A stretch of 64,000 bases of DNA, taken from Candidatus Gastranaerophilales bacterium (GTDB taxonomy: Bacteria; Cyanobacteriota; Vampirovibrionia; Gastranaerophilales; Gastranaerophilaceae). The position numbers and the translations under genes were made by a program. Every line of letters starts with the position of its first letter. The stretch's first letter is position 1. Shown piece by piece: positions 8,980 through 64,000 of this stretch. The notes under the pieces were generated by a model. It was given only the letters and a program-made list of their open reading frames with translations, did no database searches and was not told the DNA's origin. The stretch is from contig CANQOQ010000002.1 in the NCBI GenBank assembly GCA_947625495.1, positions 1-64,000 of the forward strand, given 5' to 3'.

Positions 8980-10101
8980 ATGGTCTATTCTCTAGGGGTT
9001 AAAGGTCAAAACAATATAAAGAATATTCAAAATATTTCTTTCGGGAAAAAAGAAGAAAGAAGTAAGAGTAAGTGTGAAAATAAAGACGCAATATTAGCCG
9101 AAGAACACGCTAAACACCCTATAGGAACAGGATTAAAAATAAACACGGAAAAACTTTTTAACGCATTTACCAAATATCCGAAAAAAGGCATGGAAGGAAG
9201 CAAAAACGCTAACTTTTATGAATTTCTGACAATGGGTTCCGTGCCATATATAATCGGCAGTTTGATGATGATGGCAGTATTTAATTTTGCAAACAGATAT
9301 TTTGACACCCCTTCATCAGTCAATGCCTCTAAACTCGGCAAAAAAATGGCACTGGGTGTAGTTGCTTACGGCATATTAAAAAACATTTCAAAGAAATTTA
9401 TTGAATTACCCGTTAAATATAAATACGGTATAGATGTTAATCTTCCGTATAAAAAGATAATTAATGAACTGCCCGAAGAAAATAACAAAGATAATTTAGT
9501 TACTCATGAATATCATAAAGTATTTGAAAGCGTAGATTTCCCCCGCTGGGATTTATTATATGACAATAAATACTACGGAGATAAAAGAAACGGTTATTTT
9601 GAAAAAATAGCAGAAAAATATGGTTATAAAGAAGGAGAATTAGACTATTCCGACCAAAAAATGAAATCGAAAATAAAAGAAACAGTAACCAAAACAAAAC
9701 TATTTTCAACGTTATCATCATATCTGTGGGCAGCAACGGGTGTAGGAATTGCTCTTCAAAAGCCGTGGGAATCCATGGTATTTAACCCGAAACAAAGGAT
9801 AACAAATTTAAAAAATCATATAGAAATAGCAAAAATTGCAAAAGAACAAGGCAGAAAGATTGCAAAATACAAATTTTTCCCTCAAGATTTCTTTAATAAA
9901 CTTATTAATAGTTGTAAAGAATTTGTTAATAATAGCAATAAAGCCACTAAATATGCGGGCAGAGGGCTAATTGGAGCTGCTGTTCTTATGACTTTATTAG
10001 GCAATTTTTTCACTTTAAATAACTTTAATAAAGATAAGGGGTCTAAAACTCAGGCATCTACATCTCTGATAGATGAAAGTAAAGAAAAGGTAGTTTGTTA
10101 G
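8980..10101 (+). CDS. Membrane protein of unknown function, paralogue of the next gene
   Basis: 373 aa and not recognised. It has a polar N-terminus with an ISFGKKEE motif, hydrophobic segments at about residues 90-108 and 120-135, a pair around 245-262, and one near the C-terminus (about 325-345). After the second segment it has ELPVKYKYGIDVNLPYKK, which aligns with QLPLKLRTGVDIHQKY in the next protein, so the two look like distant paralogues. GAGGAAATA precedes ATG 8980. The GA of that site overlaps the stop of a six-codon ORF starting at 8953, which could couple translation. First gene of a four-gene operon with a GH13 protein. Confidence 0.8.
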   Translation: MVYSLGVKGQNNIKNIQNISFGKKEERSKSKCENKDAILAEEHAKHPIGTGLKINTEKLFNAFTKYPKKGMEGSKNANFYEFLTMGSVPYIIGSLMMMAVFNFANRYFDTPSSVNASKLGKKMALGVVAYGILKNISKKFIELPVKYKYGIDVNLPYKKIINELPEENNKDNLVTHEYHKVFESVDFPRWDLLYDNKYYGDKRNGYFEKIAEKYGYKEGELDYSDQKMKSKIKETVTKTKLFSTLSSYLWAATGVGIALQKPWESMVFNPKQRITNLKNHIEIAKIAKEQGRKIAKYKFFPQDFFNKLINSCKEFVNNSNKATKYAGRGLIGAAVLMTLLGNFFTLNNFNKDKGSKTQASTSLIDESKEKVVC

Positions 10102-10103
10102 TA

Positions 10104-12455
10104 ATGAGTAACTTATTGAATGCAATAATATCCAAACAAACCGTTAATCCTAAAGCACAGGACAAAATACCTGCCTTTACTTTTGATTCTGACGGAAAAA
10201 CAAAACCTGCAGAATATAAAGGGAAATTATTACCATCAAGAATCATCGGTTCTCCTGTTGAATATGTAAAAGATTTGAAAAAAGACGTAATAAGTATAGG
10301 CAGAGCAGCAAAAGGCAAAGCAAACGACCATGAACTGGGTAGAATTAATGACTTAGCAATGAAAATGGGCTCATTTGCATTAGCAACATACCTGTTTATA
10401 AAAAATCCCCTTAAGTTGAACAAGGCAATGGAATTTGCCGGATTTACAACATTTTTTACTTCAATGGCACTTTGGCCGAAATTGGCTATTCAACTTCCTC
10501 TAAAACTCAGAACAGGTGTCGATATACATCAAAAATATATAGACTCTCAAGGCAGAAAAAAAATGCTTTTCCAAGATCCGCAATATGATTTGACGGATTT
10601 ATATTCTCGTGAAGACTTGGATATGCTGGGAAACAAACTTAAAGTAAATAAAAACCTGCCGGACAGAGACAATTTTATAAAGCAAAGAGCTAAGAAAACT
10701 GCCGTTCAAGGCAACACTTTATGGATGATGACGGCAGGCTTTGCAACTCCCTTAATGAGTGCTTTGGGTTGTAACCTTCTTGAAAAGCCAATTGGTAAAG
10801 CAATTGAAAGTTATGATATTATTTCTTCAACTCTAAAACTTAACAGAGGTGTTACTACAGGACCAATATCAAATTTAAAACAAACATTAGCAGATAATTC
10901 TCTCAGAAAGTTCCTGCAAAAAAATGCAGACAGAGTAATGGATGAATCATTTATCTCCGAATTGTCATCAAAATTAGGGAAAAACTCCAACTCGGCTGTT
11001 ATTATTGATGCAATCAAGGATGAAATTTCTTCTCTCAAACGCAATGTAAAAATTGACGAACAATTTATTAAGGAAGTTTTATCAGGCGTAATTAATGAAG
11101 ATACATTAAATAAATTAAATGATGGTCAAAAAACATTATTAAATCAAGCAATGGAAGAAGGATCTTCTTCAAGAATTGCCGATATTTTAATTGATTCAAT
11201 GCAAATTACCAAAAAGCATGACAGAATTAAATTAAATAAAAACATAGTTAATTTATTGGATAATGCAAAAAAATCAAAATCCGTTCCGGTATTAAGAGAC
11301 ATAACGGATAAAATCAACATAATTAATAATAATATAAAGGAATTTGCCGCAGAAAAAAATCTGCTTGATAAATATATTTCAGCAAAAATAGGAGATAAAT
11401 CCGGTACATATATTGCAAATCAATGGAGCAGAGTTGGTAACAAATTTGTTAAATTGTTAAAACTCAGTGATAAAGAATTAAAATTAATATCAGAAGGCAA
11501 TATGGATATTTTAACAAATAAATTATCCTCTCTGGCTTCTTCTGATGTTGAATATGACAACGTTATAAAAGAACTGTTGGATTTAATTAATGATTATGAA
11601 GCAAAAACAGGAAGTACTTTTGTTTCGAAAATAAAACAAAAATCAAATGAAATATGTACAAAAGCAAGCAATAATATGAATTCAAACGGATTAGAAAAAC
11701 TTGCTAAAAGGATATCTTCGGAAGTTCAAAAAGGAACTCTTGAAAACAGTATAAATATCAATGCACAAGAAAGAATAACGGGAGCTCAATCCTCATTCTA
11801 CAGATTAATTCAATCGCTGGATTTATTTAAAAGAATAAAGAGCGGAAAACTTGAACGCCAGTTAGCGGAAATTCTCAAAGCAGAAGGACGCGAAATTGAC
11901 AAAGAACAAATAAAAAAACTTACAGATGCTTGCCAAAATGTTATTCTTAATGCTACAACAACGGATTATGTTGAAAAATTAAGGAGTTCAGCTTTCAATT
12001 TATCCGAATTTGAATACAAGACCGTTATGAGAGTATTATTTGATAACGGACTGGAAGATGATGTAACTTCATCACTGCAGCAAAGCCTTACTAACTGTAA
12101 TATCGGTATTGACAGAGCTAAAGAAATGCTTGAAGGTTACAGAAAATATAAAGATGAAGTTATGAATAAAATAGCCAACTGGCAAAATAATATTACTCCT
12201 GAATTATCAAGAAGAACAGTTTCGGGAGTAACAAACAGCGCTAATGCTGTTGAAAGAAACAGTTTGGCAGGTAAATCAATTAAAAATTATATACAAGATT
12301 TATCAAAACAAGTATATAATTCTCACAAATGGCTGAAAATATTTGGTATTTCAATGGCAGTTTTAACAGCGGTAACTCTAATAGCAGGACTTGCCATCGG
12401 AAGAAAAAGTAAAATGGAAAAACAGGTAGAGGAAGAAAGCAAGAAAAATGGCTAA
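10104..12455 (+). CDS. Large membrane protein of unknown function with long helical region
   Basis: 783 aa from ATG 10104, two bases after the previous stop; a TTG nine bases upstream is in frame but less likely. Hydrophobic segments lie at about residues 90-105, 115-130 and 205-225, and a strong single TM near the C-terminus (WLKIFGISMAVLTAVTL). Between about 240 and 740 the protein is highly charged and helical with heptad character. The QLPLKLRTGVDIHQKY and LWMMTAGF segments correspond to positions in the preceding protein. It overlaps the next gene by eight bases. No known domain recognised. Confidence 0.8.
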   Translation: MSNLLNAIISKQTVNPKAQDKIPAFTFDSDGKTKPAEYKGKLLPSRIIGSPVEYVKDLKKDVISIGRAAKGKANDHELGRINDLAMKMGSFALATYLFIKNPLKLNKAMEFAGFTTFFTSMALWPKLAIQLPLKLRTGVDIHQKYIDSQGRKKMLFQDPQYDLTDLYSREDLDMLGNKLKVNKNLPDRDNFIKQRAKKTAVQGNTLWMMTAGFATPLMSALGCNLLEKPIGKAIESYDIISSTLKLNRGVTTGPISNLKQTLADNSLRKFLQKNADRVMDESFISELSSKLGKNSNSAVIIDAIKDEISSLKRNVKIDEQFIKEVLSGVINEDTLNKLNDGQKTLLNQAMEEGSSSRIADILIDSMQITKKHDRIKLNKNIVNLLDNAKKSKSVPVLRDITDKINIINNNIKEFAAEKNLLDKYISAKIGDKSGTYIANQWSRVGNKFVKLLKLSDKELKLISEGNMDILTNKLSSLASSDVEYDNVIKELLDLINDYEAKTGSTFVSKIKQKSNEICTKASNNMNSNGLEKLAKRISSEVQKGTLENSININAQERITGAQSSFYRLIQSLDLFKRIKSGKLERQLAEILKAEGREIDKEQIKKLTDACQNVILNATTTDYVEKLRSSAFNLSEFEYKTVMRVLFDNGLEDDVTSSLQQSLTNCNIGIDRAKEMLEGYRKYKDEVMNKIANWQNNITPELSRRTVSGVTNSANAVERNSLAGKSIKNYIQDLSKQVYNSHKWLKIFGISMAVLTAVTLIAGLAIGRKSKMEKQVEEESKKNG

Positions 12456-38384: not shown

Positions 38385-39515
38385 ATGAAAAAGAAAATTA
38401 TTTCATTATTAATATTGTCAGCACTATCTGTATCATATACAGTGCCTATAGTATATGCGCAAGAGCCGTTTCAGGGTCATATTGAAGAAACGGAAACAAA
38501 GCCGTACAATGATAAAAAAATATTTACAAATGAAGTAAAAAGACTTGATGAAACAAAGACCATAAATTTAACCGTTTCACAAGTTCTGGCAGGTACCACA
38601 TCAATAGAAGGGGATGAATTTTTTGCCGTTGTATCTGATGATGTTTTAGCAGGCACGGGAGTACTGCTTCCCATAGGAACAGTTGCTCATGGCAGTATTA
38701 AAAACATAGTAGACCCAAAACGTATGGGGCGTGACGGATATATAGAATTATCTTTTGATTATTTGATTACGCCTGACGGCAGAGAGATACCTATTGAAGG
38801 GAATATGACATCAAAATTGACTCCGGCTAAATCAATAGTTCAAAAAGCGGGAGAAGATTTGGCATATACGGCAGTTGGCGGTGTTTACGGTGCTGTTGCC
38901 GCAATGGAAATTGCGGGACTTGAAGGTGCTATTGTAAGCCAAGGCTATACCGTGATAGGAGGAGCTGCTCTTGGAGGTGTAATTGCACTCGGATTAAGCT
39001 TGTTCAGAAAAGGTAAAGATGTTTTAATTGCCCCCGGTGACGAAATTAAAGTTAAAATTAAAAGCAGCGAAGCAATCCCTGTTATGACTCATGAAGCCGT
39101 AAGACAGGATGAAATTAAATATGAGGGGCTGGATGTTGATATAACGGATATTTTTCTTGAAGAAGATCCGTTCGGTAATTTAAATACCATCTCAATAGAT
39201 TTAATAATTAAAAATCAATCGGATAAAGACTTTTCAGCATTTGATATAGCACTTGTAAATGATTTAAGGAACTCATACACTCCTTCTATTTTTACGGATT
39301 ATAAAAACTCACTGGCAATGAAAAATATAAAAAAAGGTGAGAATGTTTCGGGGATTTTGTCCTTTTCCGTTGATAATCCCAAAAGACAGCATTGGCTGGT
39401 ATTTTATGACAAAAGAAATCATAAACCGCTTGCTAAAATCTCTATTGATAACGCCAAACATGATTTAAATATTACTAATCTTGAAAAGAAAAAAAAGAGA
39501 CATAAAAAAGTATAA
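38385..39515 (+). CDS. Exported protein, paralogue of the gene at 48730
   Basis: 376 aa. Signal peptide MKKKIISLLILSALSVSYT ending near VYA-QE (cut about residue 25). A beta-rich domain (about 55-150) carries GTGVLLPIGTVAHGSI and YIELSFDYLITPDGREIPIEG. A Gly/Ala-rich hydrophobic stretch (about 165-210) follows, then SLFRKGKDVLIAPGDEIKVKI. The same order of motifs occurs in the 234-aa protein at 48730. This one adds a C-terminal domain (about 250-365). Outer-surface or periplasmic location is inferred; function unknown. It overlaps the Crp-like gene by one base. Confidence 0.8.
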   Translation: MKKKIISLLILSALSVSYTVPIVYAQEPFQGHIEETETKPYNDKKIFTNEVKRLDETKTINLTVSQVLAGTTSIEGDEFFAVVSDDVLAGTGVLLPIGTVAHGSIKNIVDPKRMGRDGYIELSFDYLITPDGREIPIEGNMTSKLTPAKSIVQKAGEDLAYTAVGGVYGAVAAMEIAGLEGAIVSQGYTVIGGAALGGVIALGLSLFRKGKDVLIAPGDEIKVKIKSSEAIPVMTHEAVRQDEIKYEGLDVDITDIFLEEDPFGNLNTISIDLIIKNQSDKDFSAFDIALVNDLRNSYTPSIFTDYKNSLAMKNIKKGENVSGILSFSVDNPKRQHWLVFYDKRNHKPLAKISIDNAKHDLNITNLEKKKKRHKKV

Positions 39516-54672: not shown

Positions 54673-55593
54673 TTATCCGATTGCTCTTTTAATTATTTCA
54701 TCGGTATTTTTTGAAAATTCTTTAATTTTTTCATTATCATATAATCTGTATAACTCTGTAAAACAAGAACATCTAAATGGCAGAGTAAAACCTATAATTA
54801 TAAAAGAAAATATATTTTCAACAAACATTTTTGAAATATATAAAGGAGATAAATTATCAATCAAATAATTTTTCAAAGAATAGTCTAAATTTAAATTATT
54901 AACATAATCGCTAATCGGGATTAAGTTAAAAAACTTCTCACAGCTTACAATCAAAAATGAATAGAAAGAAGATTTTTCAATAGCCCAAATCAGAAGCGAA
55001 GGCAAAAACATATAAGTGACGACAAAACATAATAAAATTAATGTAATTGTAGGCAGTAAATATGATTTTGTGAGATTAAAACTTCTTTTAACAACCTGAA
55101 ACGGATTTAAATCCGATTCAAATGCAAATATCTGAAATGTAAGACATAAAAATATTCCTAAAAGCGGAACTAAAAGCAGAACGGTAACAATCAGCATTAA
55201 GATAATATATTTAAATAATTTTCTTTGAATAACAGCATTATTTTCTTTAAAATTTATTTTTTTTACTGTTTTTTTATTATTATGTGTATAAAAAAGGATA
55301 TTTAAAGCCGAAAAATTAATAATGTAATCATAAAAAGCTTTAACAAAAACCAAAAGCAAAACTGCAATTGAAATAAGATAGATAACACTCATTGTTCCTA
55401 AAGAATTAAAACTTCCCGAATTGATTGTAAAAAAATATGTTAAGACAAAAATGAGAGCTAAAGAAAAGATTTGTCCAAAAATAGGGAAAGCGAGTGCTTT
55501 TGAAGTCTGATCAAGATACAGAAAATATGAACGTATACTTGAAAAGAAAATTTTAAAAACACCTGTAAATTTATTTGATTTTTTCTTTGGCAT
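54673..55593 (-). CDS. Polytopic membrane protein of unknown function
   Basis: 306 aa with about six TM segments and a small cytoplasmic loop near residues 95-120. The central ESDLNPFQVVKRSFNLTKSY is like the amphipathic helix of the membrane-domain proteins that shape or regulate envelopes (DUF975/YIP1-like layouts), but I cannot assign a family. GAGGAAGT precedes the ATG. Confidence 0.7.
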   Translation of the reverse strand: MPKKKSNKFTGVFKIFFSSIRSYFLYLDQTSKALAFPIFGQIFSLALIFVLTYFFTINSGSFNSLGTMSVIYLISIAVLLLVFVKAFYDYIINFSALNILFYTHNNKKTVKKINFKENNAVIQRKLFKYIILMLIVTVLLLVPLLGIFLCLTFQIFAFESDLNPFQVVKRSFNLTKSYLLPTITLILLCFVVTYMFLPSLLIWAIEKSSFYSFLIVSCEKFFNLIPISDYVNNLNLDYSLKNYLIDNLSPLYISKMFVENIFSFIIIGFTLPFRCSCFTELYRLYDNEKIKEFSKNTDEIIKRAIG

Positions 55594-60459: not shown

Positions 60460-60774
60460 TTAATTATATGAAAAATATCTTTCAAAATCTACATCGTCAA
60501 AATTACACAAAAGCCTATATACATCATCATCTTCATCCATTTTCTGGAATTTATATTCATCAAATTTCCATAATTTTGGATTAATTCCGCATACCCTTAT
60601 AATTTCTTTATCAAGCAGGATATTAAGTTTTTTCTTAACAATATCCAGAGGCATTTCAAGCAATTTAGAAAGTTCGACAGCAGAAATTCCCTCGGCTCTC
60701 GAGCATTTTTCGGGAGTGAGAAACATAAGTTCAAGACCTACTTTTTTTAATTCTGTGTCTTCTATTGTATCCAT
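60460..60774 (-). CDS. Small winged-helix-like protein
   Basis: 104 aa. A helix-turn-helix-like stretch is visible at about 28-62 (GISAVELSKLLEMPLDIVKKKLN; LLDKEIIRVCG), then an acidic tail. GGATAAGAAA precedes the ATG. Its stop abuts the 3' end of the 6S-like RNA. It may be a DNA-binding regulator; the target is unknown. Confidence 0.65.
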   Translation of the reverse strand: MDTIEDTELKKVGLELMFLTPEKCSRAEGISAVELSKLLEMPLDIVKKKLNILLDKEIIRVCGINPKLWKFDEYKFQKMDEDDDVYRLLCNFDDVDFERYFSYN

Positions 60775-60899: not shown

Positions 60900-63017
60900 A
60901 TGGCAGAGTACAATATTTGTTACAGTTTAGATTCAAAATATGCTGAGCAGCTTGCTGTTTCCATTTCTTCCATATTAAGAAATTCATTAGATAATGAAAA
61001 TATCAGATTTTATATTCTTGATGGCGGATTAACAAAGCAGGATAAAACAAATATAGAATTATTAAAAAATATTAAGAATTTTGAAATTAACTATATTGAA
61101 ATAAATCCGTCAGAGTTTAAGAACTGCCCATTGTTAAAGGATAAAGATAACAAATATAAAAAATATCACGTCACGCTTCCTACATATTTCAGGTTCAAGC
61201 TGGCTTCAATATTTGATAAATCAGATAAAATTTTATATTTGGACTGCGATGTAATAATAAATAAATCATTAAAAACACTTTACGAAACAAATATAAAAGA
61301 TACGGCGGCCTTAATGGTTTTGGATGCCGAAAGCAAAAGAGAAGCTGAAAGATTAAATTTAGAAAAATATTGTAATGCCGGTGTAATGCTTATTAATCTT
61401 GACTATTGGCGAAAAAACAATGTAGAACAAAGGCTGTTTGATTATGCAAAAAACAATGCCGATAAAATATTATGGCAGGATCAGGATGTTATAAATGCCG
61501 TATTAGAAAACGAAATAAAAACCATAGATAACAAATGGAATTTCCAATATTTTCAATATGAAAATATTGATATAGAGAAACTTCCGAAAATCGGGATTTT
61601 TCATCTTGCCGGAAGATTTAAGCCTTGGCTTATGGCTTTTGAACACCCTTTGTATGATCTTTATTATTTTTATCTCGCTAAGACCGCTTGGAGAAACAAA
61701 ATAATCAAATACAAAGAGAATGCAAGCGGTAAAACTTTAAAAAATAATATTGGCGGCAATATTACAAATATACTTGTTAATGCTACTGATGAAGATATTC
61801 AAAAAATTTATTCGGAAATAAACAAAATATATGAACTTAAATCCGATTTAACCTCTCAAACCGATGAAAAAGTTTCTAAAGTTTATGATGAAATTTCTAA
61901 AAACTATGACTATACTAATCAGCTTTCAAATGAGCTTAAATCCTCAATTATTGACTCCGAGCAGCGCTCTAATGACTCTATTAACTCGCTTAAATCCGAT
62001 TTAACCTCTCAAACTGATGAAAAAGTTTCTAAAGTTTATGATGAAATTTCTAAAAACTATGACTATACTAATCAGCTTTCAAATGAGCTTAAATCCTCAA
62101 TTATTGACTCCGAGCAGCGCTCTAATGACTCTATTAACGCTCTTAAATCTGATTTAAATGCTCAATCTGACGAAAAGGTTTCTAAAGTCTACGATGAAAT
62201 TTCTAAAAACTATGATTATACCAATCAATTATCTGATGAACTGAAATCTTCTATTATTGACTCTGAGCAGCGCTCAATCGGCTCTATTAACTCTCTTAAA
62301 TCTGATTTAACCTCTCAAACCGATGAAAAGGTTTCTAAAGTCTACGATGAAATTTCTAAAAACTATGATTACACTAATAAATTATCAAATGAGCTTAAAT
62401 CTTCAATTATTGACTCTGAACAGCGTTCAATCGGTTCTATTAACTCTCTTAAATCCGATTTAACCTCTCAAACCGATGAAAAAGTATCTAAAGTCTATGA
62501 CGAAATTTCTAAAAACTATAAATACACGGAAGAACTTGTTAATAAAGCTGAAAATAATACAAAAGCAAACATAAATGAAATACAAACAATGAAATTTGAT
62601 ATTTCTAATAAGGCAAAAGATTTATATATATACATGAATGAACAATTTACCGGTTTATTCAGCGAATTTAACGAAAGCCATAAACTTTTAAATGATAAGA
62701 TTGAAAATAAAAGTATTGAAAATAATAAAAAACTTGAATCTGCCGTTGAAAACACTAAAGTGTTTAATCAAGAATTGAAAAATAATACGGAATCTGCCAT
62801 AAATACTTTTAATGAAAAACTGCAAACCATAGAAAACCAATATAAACAACATATATCAGAACTGCAAAATACTTTTAACGAGCAGCTAAACAGTCAAAGA
62901 GTTAAATATGAAAAAAAATTATCAGACTTAGAAAATATAATTGCTGCCTTTGAAAACAAATATGAATTAAAAAAAGAAAGTATTTTTGATAAATTAAAAA
63001 AGAGCATGAAAAAATGA
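60900..63017 (+). CDS. GT8-family glycosyltransferase with coiled-coil tandem-repeat tail
   Basis: 705 aa from ATG 60900. An ATG at 60879 is in frame, but TACAAT at 60869-60874 places the likely transcript start near it, and GGGAA precedes 60900. The N-terminal GT8 domain (about 1-260) has YNICYSLDSKYAEQLAVSIS, the DxD site in LYLDCDVIINKSL, YCNAGVMLINLDYWR and IFHLAGRFKPW. GT8 enzymes transfer glucose or galactose from UDP-sugars. From about residue 313 four exact-length 51-residue repeats plus a partial one form a coiled coil, then a further helical tail to the end. No TM segment or signal. The following gene overlaps by four bases and shares the tail motif. Confidence 0.88.
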   Translation: MAEYNICYSLDSKYAEQLAVSISSILRNSLDNENIRFYILDGGLTKQDKTNIELLKNIKNFEINYIEINPSEFKNCPLLKDKDNKYKKYHVTLPTYFRFKLASIFDKSDKILYLDCDVIINKSLKTLYETNIKDTAALMVLDAESKREAERLNLEKYCNAGVMLINLDYWRKNNVEQRLFDYAKNNADKILWQDQDVINAVLENEIKTIDNKWNFQYFQYENIDIEKLPKIGIFHLAGRFKPWLMAFEHPLYDLYYFYLAKTAWRNKIIKYKENASGKTLKNNIGGNITNILVNATDEDIQKIYSEINKIYELKSDLTSQTDEKVSKVYDEISKNYDYTNQLSNELKSSIIDSEQRSNDSINSLKSDLTSQTDEKVSKVYDEISKNYDYTNQLSNELKSSIIDSEQRSNDSINALKSDLNAQSDEKVSKVYDEISKNYDYTNQLSDELKSSIIDSEQRSIGSINSLKSDLTSQTDEKVSKVYDEISKNYDYTNKLSNELKSSIIDSEQRSIGSINSLKSDLTSQTDEKVSKVYDEISKNYKYTEELVNKAENNTKANINEIQTMKFDISNKAKDLYIYMNEQFTGLFSEFNESHKLLNDKIENKSIENNKKLESAVENTKVFNQELKNNTESAINTFNEKLQTIENQYKQHISELQNTFNEQLNSQRVKYEKKLSDLENIIAAFENKYELKKESIFDKLKKSMKK
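61836..62526 (+). repeat. In-gene tandem repeat, 153-bp period
   Basis: Units begin at 61836, 61989, 62142, 62295 and 62448, all 153 bp apart; the last is truncated. Each encodes 51 residues containing LKSDLTSQTDEKVSKVYDE and ISKNYDYTNQLS. The first two units are nearly identical at DNA level and later ones drift at third positions. Confidence 0.95.
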
Positions 63018-64000
63018 ATACCCAAAAAATATCAATAGCTGTTATATATAAAAGAGATGATGAAAGAATAAAAGAATTTCTTTCTAAATTAATAAATCAA
63101 ACATTCAAAGATATGGAAATTATCTTAGGTGCCTACGGAGACGGAGACTATACCCCCGAATTAATCAATTCATCTAAAATTAAACATATTAATTTTCCTG
63201 AAAATAATGATTTCGAATCCGTTAAATATGCACTAATTAATTTATTATCCGGAGAATATATCTGTATTCTTTCTCCCGAAACGACTATAACAGAAGATTA
63301 TATCCAAAATCTTTATACCGAAACTTTCAAAAATAACTGCTCAAAAGCAGAAATAAAGCAAAATAAACTTTATAAAAGAAATTTTATTGAGAATAATTCA
63401 AATATTGAAGAACTGATTAATAATAAATACCAAAAAGGATTTGAAGAACTTAAAATTTCACAAAAAGAACAATTAGATGAATTCTATAAAAATACCGATA
63501 CTGCTATAAATAATAAAGTTTATGACTTAACAATCAGATTTAATAACCTTGAAAAAAATATATATGACAAAGAAAAACAAATAGAAGAAAATACCAAAAA
63601 TATTACACAAAATGCTATGAATTCCATTCAGGAGAATAACTCTCATATATACTCAGATATTTCAAAAGTTTATGATTTTATTAACTCAGAATCTAATAAA
63701 AGAGGAGAAGAAATTAATAAAATATATAATGAAATTACCAATAATTATAAATATACCGAAAATTTAATTAATGAAACAAAAGAAGAATTCAGAAATGAAA
63801 TCAATCAGATTTACAACAAAATTAATGAAACGGTTAACGAGCAAAAAGTAATGTATAATAATCTCGAAAAACTGGTTGAAGTAACCAGAGACGAATTAAC
63901 CGAAAAAATGGAAATACTGTCAGGTTTTAATCCTTCAGAATCCAAAACTAATATAAATACAATTTCACAAATAAACTCACTTGAAAAAACCATTCAAAAT
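63014..64000 (+). CDS. GT2-like protein with coiled-coil tail (3' end outside window)
   Basis: The frame is open from ATG 63014 to the window's end (329 codons). The ATG overlaps the previous stop (ATGA). The first 110 residues follow the GT2 pattern: ISIAVIYKRDDERIKEFLSK, LINQTFKDMEIIL, YALINLLSGEYICIL. But the usual Asp-Gly-Ser-rich and DxD segments are reduced (GAYGDGDY; no clear DxD), so it may be inactive or a scaffold. Then a long charged coiled coil begins, with KIYNEITNNYKYTENLINE, closely like the repeat in the upstream protein. Confidence 0.8.
   Translation, partial: MNTQKISIAVIYKRDDERIKEFLSKLINQTFKDMEIILGAYGDGDYTPELINSSKIKHINFPENNDFESVKYALINLLSGEYICILSPETTITEDYIQNLYTETFKNNCSKAEIKQNKLYKRNFIENNSNIEELINNKYQKGFEELKISQKEQLDEFYKNTDTAINNKVYDLTIRFNNLEKNIYDKEKQIEENTKNITQNAMNSIQENNSHIYSDISKVYDFINSESNKRGEEINKIYNEITNNYKYTENLINETKEEFRNEINQIYNKINETVNEQKVMYNNLEKLVEVTRDELTEKMEILSGFNPSESKTNINTISQINSLEKTIQN

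Follow-up and report, generated by a model that had tools for sequence, protein, structure and literature searches.

Three adjacent genes, the first of which lies at the 3′ end of the window (the whole stretch of 64,000 nucleotides that was analyzed, positions 1-64000 of a 220-kb contig in a genome of 1.88 Mb that is 97% complete), encode glycosyltransferase-like proteins with coiled-coil tails, and these tails are homologous and separately conserved in the three genes across the genus. The second gene of the three is predicted to encode a GT2 that has lost its activity. Coiled-coil-organized glycan assembly is known already; what is new here is that several enzymes carry one lineage-restricted tail family, that a dead glycosyltransferase is conserved beside them and that each cassette has a single C-terminal cap.

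The seven-gene operon and its distribution

The two overlapping genes that were initially annotated at the edge of the window turned out, when the contig was read past position 64000, to be the first two genes of a seven-gene operon, with gene 2 ending at 64111 (Table 1). The four-base overlap described for the pair is present as an ATGA at positions 63014-63017, where gene 2 starts inside the end of gene 1, and in 20 of 22 loci the spacing between gene 1 and the next gene is from -16 to +7 bases. The enzyme content of the operon consists only of GT8 and GT2 genes, and genes 3-7 show an expansion of the operon through duplication. On the 3′ side of gene 7 lie a gene for a 170-aa protein and then ftsZ, and none of the adhesin or accessory Sec genes that mark a serine-rich-repeat adhesin glycosylation cluster were seen among the inspected ORFs adjoining the operon. 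Elsewhere in the window, three proteins of 786, 376 and 306 aa (10095-12455, 38385-39515 and 54673-55593, respectively) gave no Pfam match.

Table 1. Coordinates of the operon, its neighbor, its domains and tail elements, and the empty sites in related genomes.
Feature	Position	Strand	Evidence
104-aa protein, divergent neighbor of gene 1, outside the cassette	60460..60774	-	order-wide presence; borders the empty site
Gene 1: GT8 with coiled-coil tail, 712 aa	60879..63017	+	ORF; PF01501
GT8 catalytic domain, gene 1	60912..61631	+	PF01501; nearest solved structure LgtC, E=3e-26
Tail-module tandem array, gene 1	61836..62519	+	Tandem Repeats Finder: 153-bp (51-aa) period, 4.5 copies
C-terminal cap, gene 1 (FNEQLNSQRVKYEKKL...), with a basic amphipathic end	62859..63014	+	cap profile; charge, moment
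Gene 2: predicted truncated pseudo-GT2 with coiled-coil tail, 365 aa	63014..64111, stop beyond window (in-window 63014..64000)	+	ORF; PF00535; AF2
The one tail module in gene 2 (KIYNEITNNYKYT)	63719..63757	+	pattern match; conserved at residues 237-255 in orthologues
Gene 3: GT2 with tail, 595 aa	64113-65900, beyond window		ORF, Pfam
Gene 4: plain GT2, 397 aa	65893-67086, beyond window		ORF, Pfam
Gene 5: plain GT2, 402 aa	67090-68298, beyond window		ORF, Pfam
Gene 6: GT2 with C-terminal coil, 465 aa	68291-69688, beyond window		ORF, Pfam
Gene 7: N-terminal coil, then GT2, 497 aa	69696-71189, beyond window		ORF, Pfam
Empty sites	L158 2668-3684; L159 5080-6084

Gene 1 is, as the initial annotation had it, a GT8 protein with a coiled-coil tail: PF01501 matches residues 12-251 practically over its full length (profile positions 1-250 of 253, E=5e-44, 151 bits against a cut-off of 24.3), and the array of tail modules follows. 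The metal site DxD (D122-C123-D124) and the HxxGxxKPW nucleotide site (H242, G245, K248, P249 and W250) are invariant across 13 orthologues. In its catalytic domain and in both of these sites gene 1 resembles LgtC-type GT8 and the GT8 enzymes of LPS and adhesin glycosylation (PDB 1g9r, 5gvv and, for WbbM, 6u4b), whereas the match to these solved relatives covers only the GT8 domain, which was the query used, and not the tail. The five motif cores of the gene 1 tail lie at residues 335, 386, 437, 488 and 539. Across species this tail varies with repeat number from about 140 to 1040 aa, and the repeat numbers may be under-counted in G105, G158, G209 and G123, since the array fragments these metagenome assemblies and their contigs (L071, L074, L079, L080) end within it.

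In other genera of the family the GT8 domain is fused to other globular domains (L147 4011-5876, L148 4648-6621, L146 3842-6061), which by eye are LicD-like, glycosyltransferase-like and stealth-like; these fusions suggest that GT8 is reshuffled frequently in this order. The long GT8 proteins of other genera were also considered as distant relatives of gene 1, and were set aside because those inspected are globular fusions without such tails.

Gene 1 is present in 15 of the 18 genomes of the genus, the source genome included, and gene 2 in 14 of them, with one more contig stopping within gene 1. Of the three genomes of the genus that lack gene 1, two have an empty site, in which a distance of 153-171 bp separates the 104-aa gene from the 170-aa gene and ftsZ, and in these two the cassette is missing as a whole unit. 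Partial sets were found as well: the genus-mate G126 has genes 1-3 only, and in G199, which belongs to a second genus, gene 1 and a tailed GT2 stand with two further genes at a different genomic place, with no gene 2. The 104-aa neighbor gave one match in each of 233 of the 241 genomes of the order, and none in Pfam or NCBIfam. It is a core gene of Gastranaerophilales, and this order-wide presence rules it out as a regulator that would be the specific partner of the operon.

A tail module shared by genes 1, 2 and 3

The tail module is rich in tyrosine, with the consensus [VI]YxE[ILV][TSG]x[NS]Yx[YF]T and the core VYxEIxKNYxYT. The common motif that had been noticed in the first two proteins is indeed found in both tails, as KVYDEISKNYKYTEEL in gene 1 and as KIYNEITNNYKYTENL in gene 2; gene 1 carries five copies of the module, gene 2 carries one and the gene 3 orthologues carry 0-7 across species. 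We built a tail profile from the gene 1 units alone and applied it to the gene 2 and gene 3 proteins, to shuffled tails and to other ORFs. The profile recovered all 20 gene 2 proteins of the set (E from 3e-13 to 2e-6) and 20 of 26 gene 3 proteins at E<1e-3, while 400 shuffled tails gave no match and the 826 other ORFs gave none that was unrelated, and the likeness of the tails is therefore beyond chance.

The module is confined to genes 1-3 or to their fragments (70 loci, 922 ORFs; many copies are cut by contig ends), and in the 241 genomes of the order that were searched, tail matches at this locus occur in 13 genomes. The sole match outside the locus in the order, a CheA-like kinase of G207 (E 3e-5, 33% identity), was judged to be due to chance. 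Among 84,980 species we obtained 46 confirmed relatives, all of them either from Gastranaerophilales or from unlabelled gut or 'Cyanobacteria' MAGs in which this locus is present; Candidatus Avigastranaerophilus faecigallinarum is a named carrier. Beyond the two proteins initially annotated, one further enzyme, the gene 3 GT2, has a tail of this family, and in the collections searched the motif was not common in unrelated coiled coils. The possibility of a generic coiled-coil feature was rejected, since all matches but the one in G207 lie at this locus, and a phage origin of the module was set aside, as the search of viral contigs gave no relative. No counterpart of the tail was found in Pfam or NCBIfam.

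Concerted evolution between gene 1 and gene 3 of one genome was looked for and not seen: modules of the two genes from one genome resembled each other no more than those from different genomes (2 of 28, with 1.2 expected). Recent exchange of modules does not, thus, explain the likeness between gene 1 and gene 3, and the lack of homogenization indicates that each of the two genes keeps its own conserved copy.

The distances between modules (33, 40, 44, 47, 48, 51, 62, 65, 66 and others) share one helical phase, with a best-fit period of 3.675 residues per turn that none of 5000 random sets fitted as well, and the periodicity of the hydrophobic core in the tails is 3.61-3.67 residues. The tails are predicted to be a coiled coil of the hendecad type and not of the plain heptad type. 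Core-type (hydrophobic) residues account for a fraction of about 0.3 of the tail, which would fit a coiled coil better than a helix lying on the membrane; an apolipoprotein-like match (E=3e-4) was also obtained, weak and under Pfam's cut-off. The AF2 model of gene 2, which is that of a near-identical orthologue (L102), comprises a GT-A half domain of strands and helices at residues 6-121, a helix at 129-303, with the highest confidence at about residues 180-250, and a second helix at 312-364. In the model of gene 1 the GT8 domain is good, and the tail is helical at low confidence (pLDDT mostly 30-50) and uninformative. Across species the length of the gene 1 tail showed no correlation with that of the gene 3 tail (rho -0.24, n=16), which rules out matched lengths and a simple equal-length zipper.

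Gene 2 and the C-terminal cap

Gene 2 had been annotated as degenerate and GT2-like; the relation to GT2 stands, but the protein is more than degenerate, because every orthologue seen has a dead half domain. PF00535 scores 30.5 bits on gene 2 and covers residues 8-108 only, that is the nucleotide-binding half of GT-A, and a Foldseek search gave GT2 matches (E 5e-6). The site of DxD reads SPE, LEN, IDN, VNP, LTA, ISS and so on in the orthologues, none of which has retained DxD; the domain lacks its middle part, and the acceptor half has been lost together with the ED catalytic-base region. After residue ~108 comes a remnant, NKLYRRxFLEN, which corresponds to WNKLYRKSFL of the active paralogues, and the coil adjoins it immediately. 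The solved GT2 enzymes CgT/GalT1, SpsA, TarP and TagF (PDB 5hea, 1h7l, 6h1j and 3l7i) are similar to the gene 3 domain, which looks active, and to the half domain of gene 2, and genes 4-7 are assigned to this family by Pfam. Gene 2 differs from the CgT/SpsA group in that only the nucleotide-binding half has been kept, the catalytic residues have been lost and a coiled coil has been joined. On this sequence evidence, gene 2 would be a conserved, catalytically dead GT2 that can hardly transfer sugar.

In a tree with long branches, a branch supported at 100/100 sets the GT2 remnants of gene 2 apart as one group, and because of this grouping the truncated GT2 probably had a single origin. With respect to the closest relative, dN/dS is 0.15 for gene 2 and likewise 0.15 for the GT8 of gene 1, and gene 2 is, as judged from such comparisons, under purifying selection. 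The idea of a decaying pseudogene was discarded in view of this dN/dS value and of a similar open length in 20 distinct orthologues. Mean pairwise identity within gene 2 is 61% in the tail module, 43% in the GT remnant and 36-37% in the other coil, suggesting that selection keeps the tail first. In the comparison with L102 (900-1997), dS is 0.43 for gene 2, compared to 0.15 for the gene 1 GT8 and 0.17 for the gene 3 GT2, as if gene 2 had a separate history or had undergone recombination.

The cap has the consensus NQQR[IV]KYExKLxxMEN plus a basic end. It is found exactly once per cassette in all 16 complete loci, of which 11 have it on gene 1 and the other 5 on gene 3, these loci being related, so that the count does not stand for 16 independent events. 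In the swapped loci, where the cap is on gene 3, the gene order is 1-3-2 and the gene 1 tail is short; these loci do not form one group in a quick, weakly resolved GT8 tree. The last 26 residues of genes 1, 3 and 6 have a net charge of +4 to +9 and are mostly amphipathic, and gene 2 is without such an end. The coils of genes 6 and 7 were also considered as copies of the gene 1 cap, and this was not retained, the motif resemblance being weak and significant only for the tailed GT2 of G199.

Possible roles of the shared tails

At the cytoplasmic face of the inner membrane, GT2 enzymes and GT8 enzymes of the LgtC type extend lipid-linked oligosaccharides by single sugars, and an LgtC-type GT8 usually adds one sugar in oligosaccharide building. 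The genome encodes one Wzy_C protein and an LpxC (E=3e-64) that indicates a lipid A pathway, and no ABC-2 exporter membrane protein (PF01061) was detected in this 97% complete genome by a search that was positive in 14 of 14 control genomes. The suggestion made initially, that the matching tails assemble together, is partly supported by the homology, separate conservation and locus restriction of the tails and by the one cap per cassette. As the best explanation, we consider it an even chance that the seven genes are an accessory glycan-assembly cassette in which the enzymes are physically grouped, with the dead GT2 as organizer. The tails of genes 1-3 would bundle together in the cytoplasm, with the fairly constant tail of gene 2 serving as adaptor and the tails of genes 1 and 3 as arms of variable length, and the capped, basic ends would sit on the inner membrane. 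Organized by the dead GT2, such a bundle would hold the GT8, the GT2s and the lipid-linked acceptor in one place, where an oligosaccharide could be built stepwise, the product being most plausibly the outer lipid A-core or lipooligosaccharide, or another lipid-linked surface glycan. Translational coupling, the next start codon being only a few bases away from the stop of gene 1, favors a co-translational assembly of the gene 1 protein and its neighbor. In favor of the grouping we count the restriction of the module to genes 1-3, the selective upkeep of gene 2 with its well-conserved tail module, the common helical phase of the modules, the one cap per cassette, the close gene spacing, the separate conservation of the modules of genes 1 and 3, the absence of the cassette as a unit in two genus-mates and the presence of LpxC. 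We count against it the lack of a length correlation between the gene 1 and gene 3 tails, the low-confidence model of the gene 1 tail and the partial sets in G126 and G199.

Some active glycosyltransferases need an inactive homologue or partner, as is the case of GtfA-GtfB and of EryCIII-EryCII (PMC3391682). The cassette is similar in concept to these pairs, but the suspected contact here would be through coiled-coil tails and no sequence relation is expected. For the O-polysaccharides of Klebsiella and E. coli, the enzymes of glycan assembly have been described as brought together by membrane-associated scaffolds of coiled-coil type, in which the coil of one protein sets the glycan length (PMC11231755). 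The statement in the initial annotation that no system of this architecture had been described was thus too strong, even though the described systems use a different export route. Gene 1, as predicted from its sequence, resembles WbdD/WbdA, WbbB and the K. pneumoniae O4/O7 terminators in having an N-terminal enzyme, a long coil and a basic/amphipathic C-terminus. In the WbdD/WbbB type, however, the coil is on one protein and the system depends on an ABC transporter, whereas here one module family is on three adjacent proteins, one of them the dead GT2; the search for an ABC2 exporter in this genome found none, and no sequence relation was seen. In the literature searched, which lay outside most subscription journals, we found no description of a pseudoenzyme/coiled-coil glycosyltransferase scaffold like this one, nor anything to the point on the glycosyltransferases of Gastranaerophilales.

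The main rival explanation, which we regard as unlikely, is that the tail of gene 1 (of gene 3 when swapped) acts as a ruler or spacer, setting the distance of a terminating enzyme from membrane-bound polymerizing GT2s and hence the length of the glycan, as in the described precedent of Klebsiella O4/O7/O12 and E. coli O9 (PMC11231755). The N-terminal enzyme, the coil of widely varying length, the basic amphipathic C-terminus and the one capped tail per cassette are all consistent with it. The precedent systems, however, need an ABC transporter, and no ABC2_membrane protein was found here, with controls at 14/14; moreover, tails are also found on a pseudoenzyme and on a second enzyme, and the single sugar usually added by an LgtC-type GT8 does not fit. 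A shade less likely again is that the tails form homo-oligomers only, their likeness coming from an old duplication of the tail onto neighboring enzymes. This would agree with the operon growth through duplication to which genes 3-7 point, with the uncorrelated tail lengths of genes 1 and 3 and with the related GT2 CgT having been solved as a hexamer by itself (5hea), but it leaves unexplained why the dead gene 2 is kept by selection with its tail module best conserved, and why the cap is on exactly one of the two enzymes.

It is more improbable still that the tail is a localization tag, with the Tyr-rich module binding a common partner, such as a membrane patch or a polar or septal protein, to which each enzyme would be brought separately. 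The short conserved core, repeated in varying number, does resemble a binding motif, and hendecad helices can lie on membranes, as the weak apolipoprotein-like match would recall; the hydrophobic fraction of the tail is nevertheless typical of coiled coils and not of membrane helices. The position of the cassette next to ftsZ, which could also speak for such a tag, is explained by insertion beside core genes, and in the second genus the cassette lies elsewhere.

Starting from the grouping of the enzymes through their tails, we tentatively envisage, as a possible though rather doubtful extension, an assembly line in which the enzymes of a pathway are placed on a common hendecad rod by interchangeable tails, with a dead glycosyltransferase as organizer and one swappable cap, and in which evolution would alter the pathway by moving enzymes between tails and not by altering active sites. 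The natural series of tail lengths and the swapped enzyme orders can separate the scaffold and ruler models, and VYxEIxKNYxYT is a marker of the cassette in uncultured gut bacteria. If the tails co-assemble, the cassette would be a clean, sequence-tagged case of glycan-pathway channeling in which each member is recognizable by its tail, and a structural role would be assigned to a conserved dead glycosyltransferase; surface sugars may then be built on a dedicated protein scaffold.
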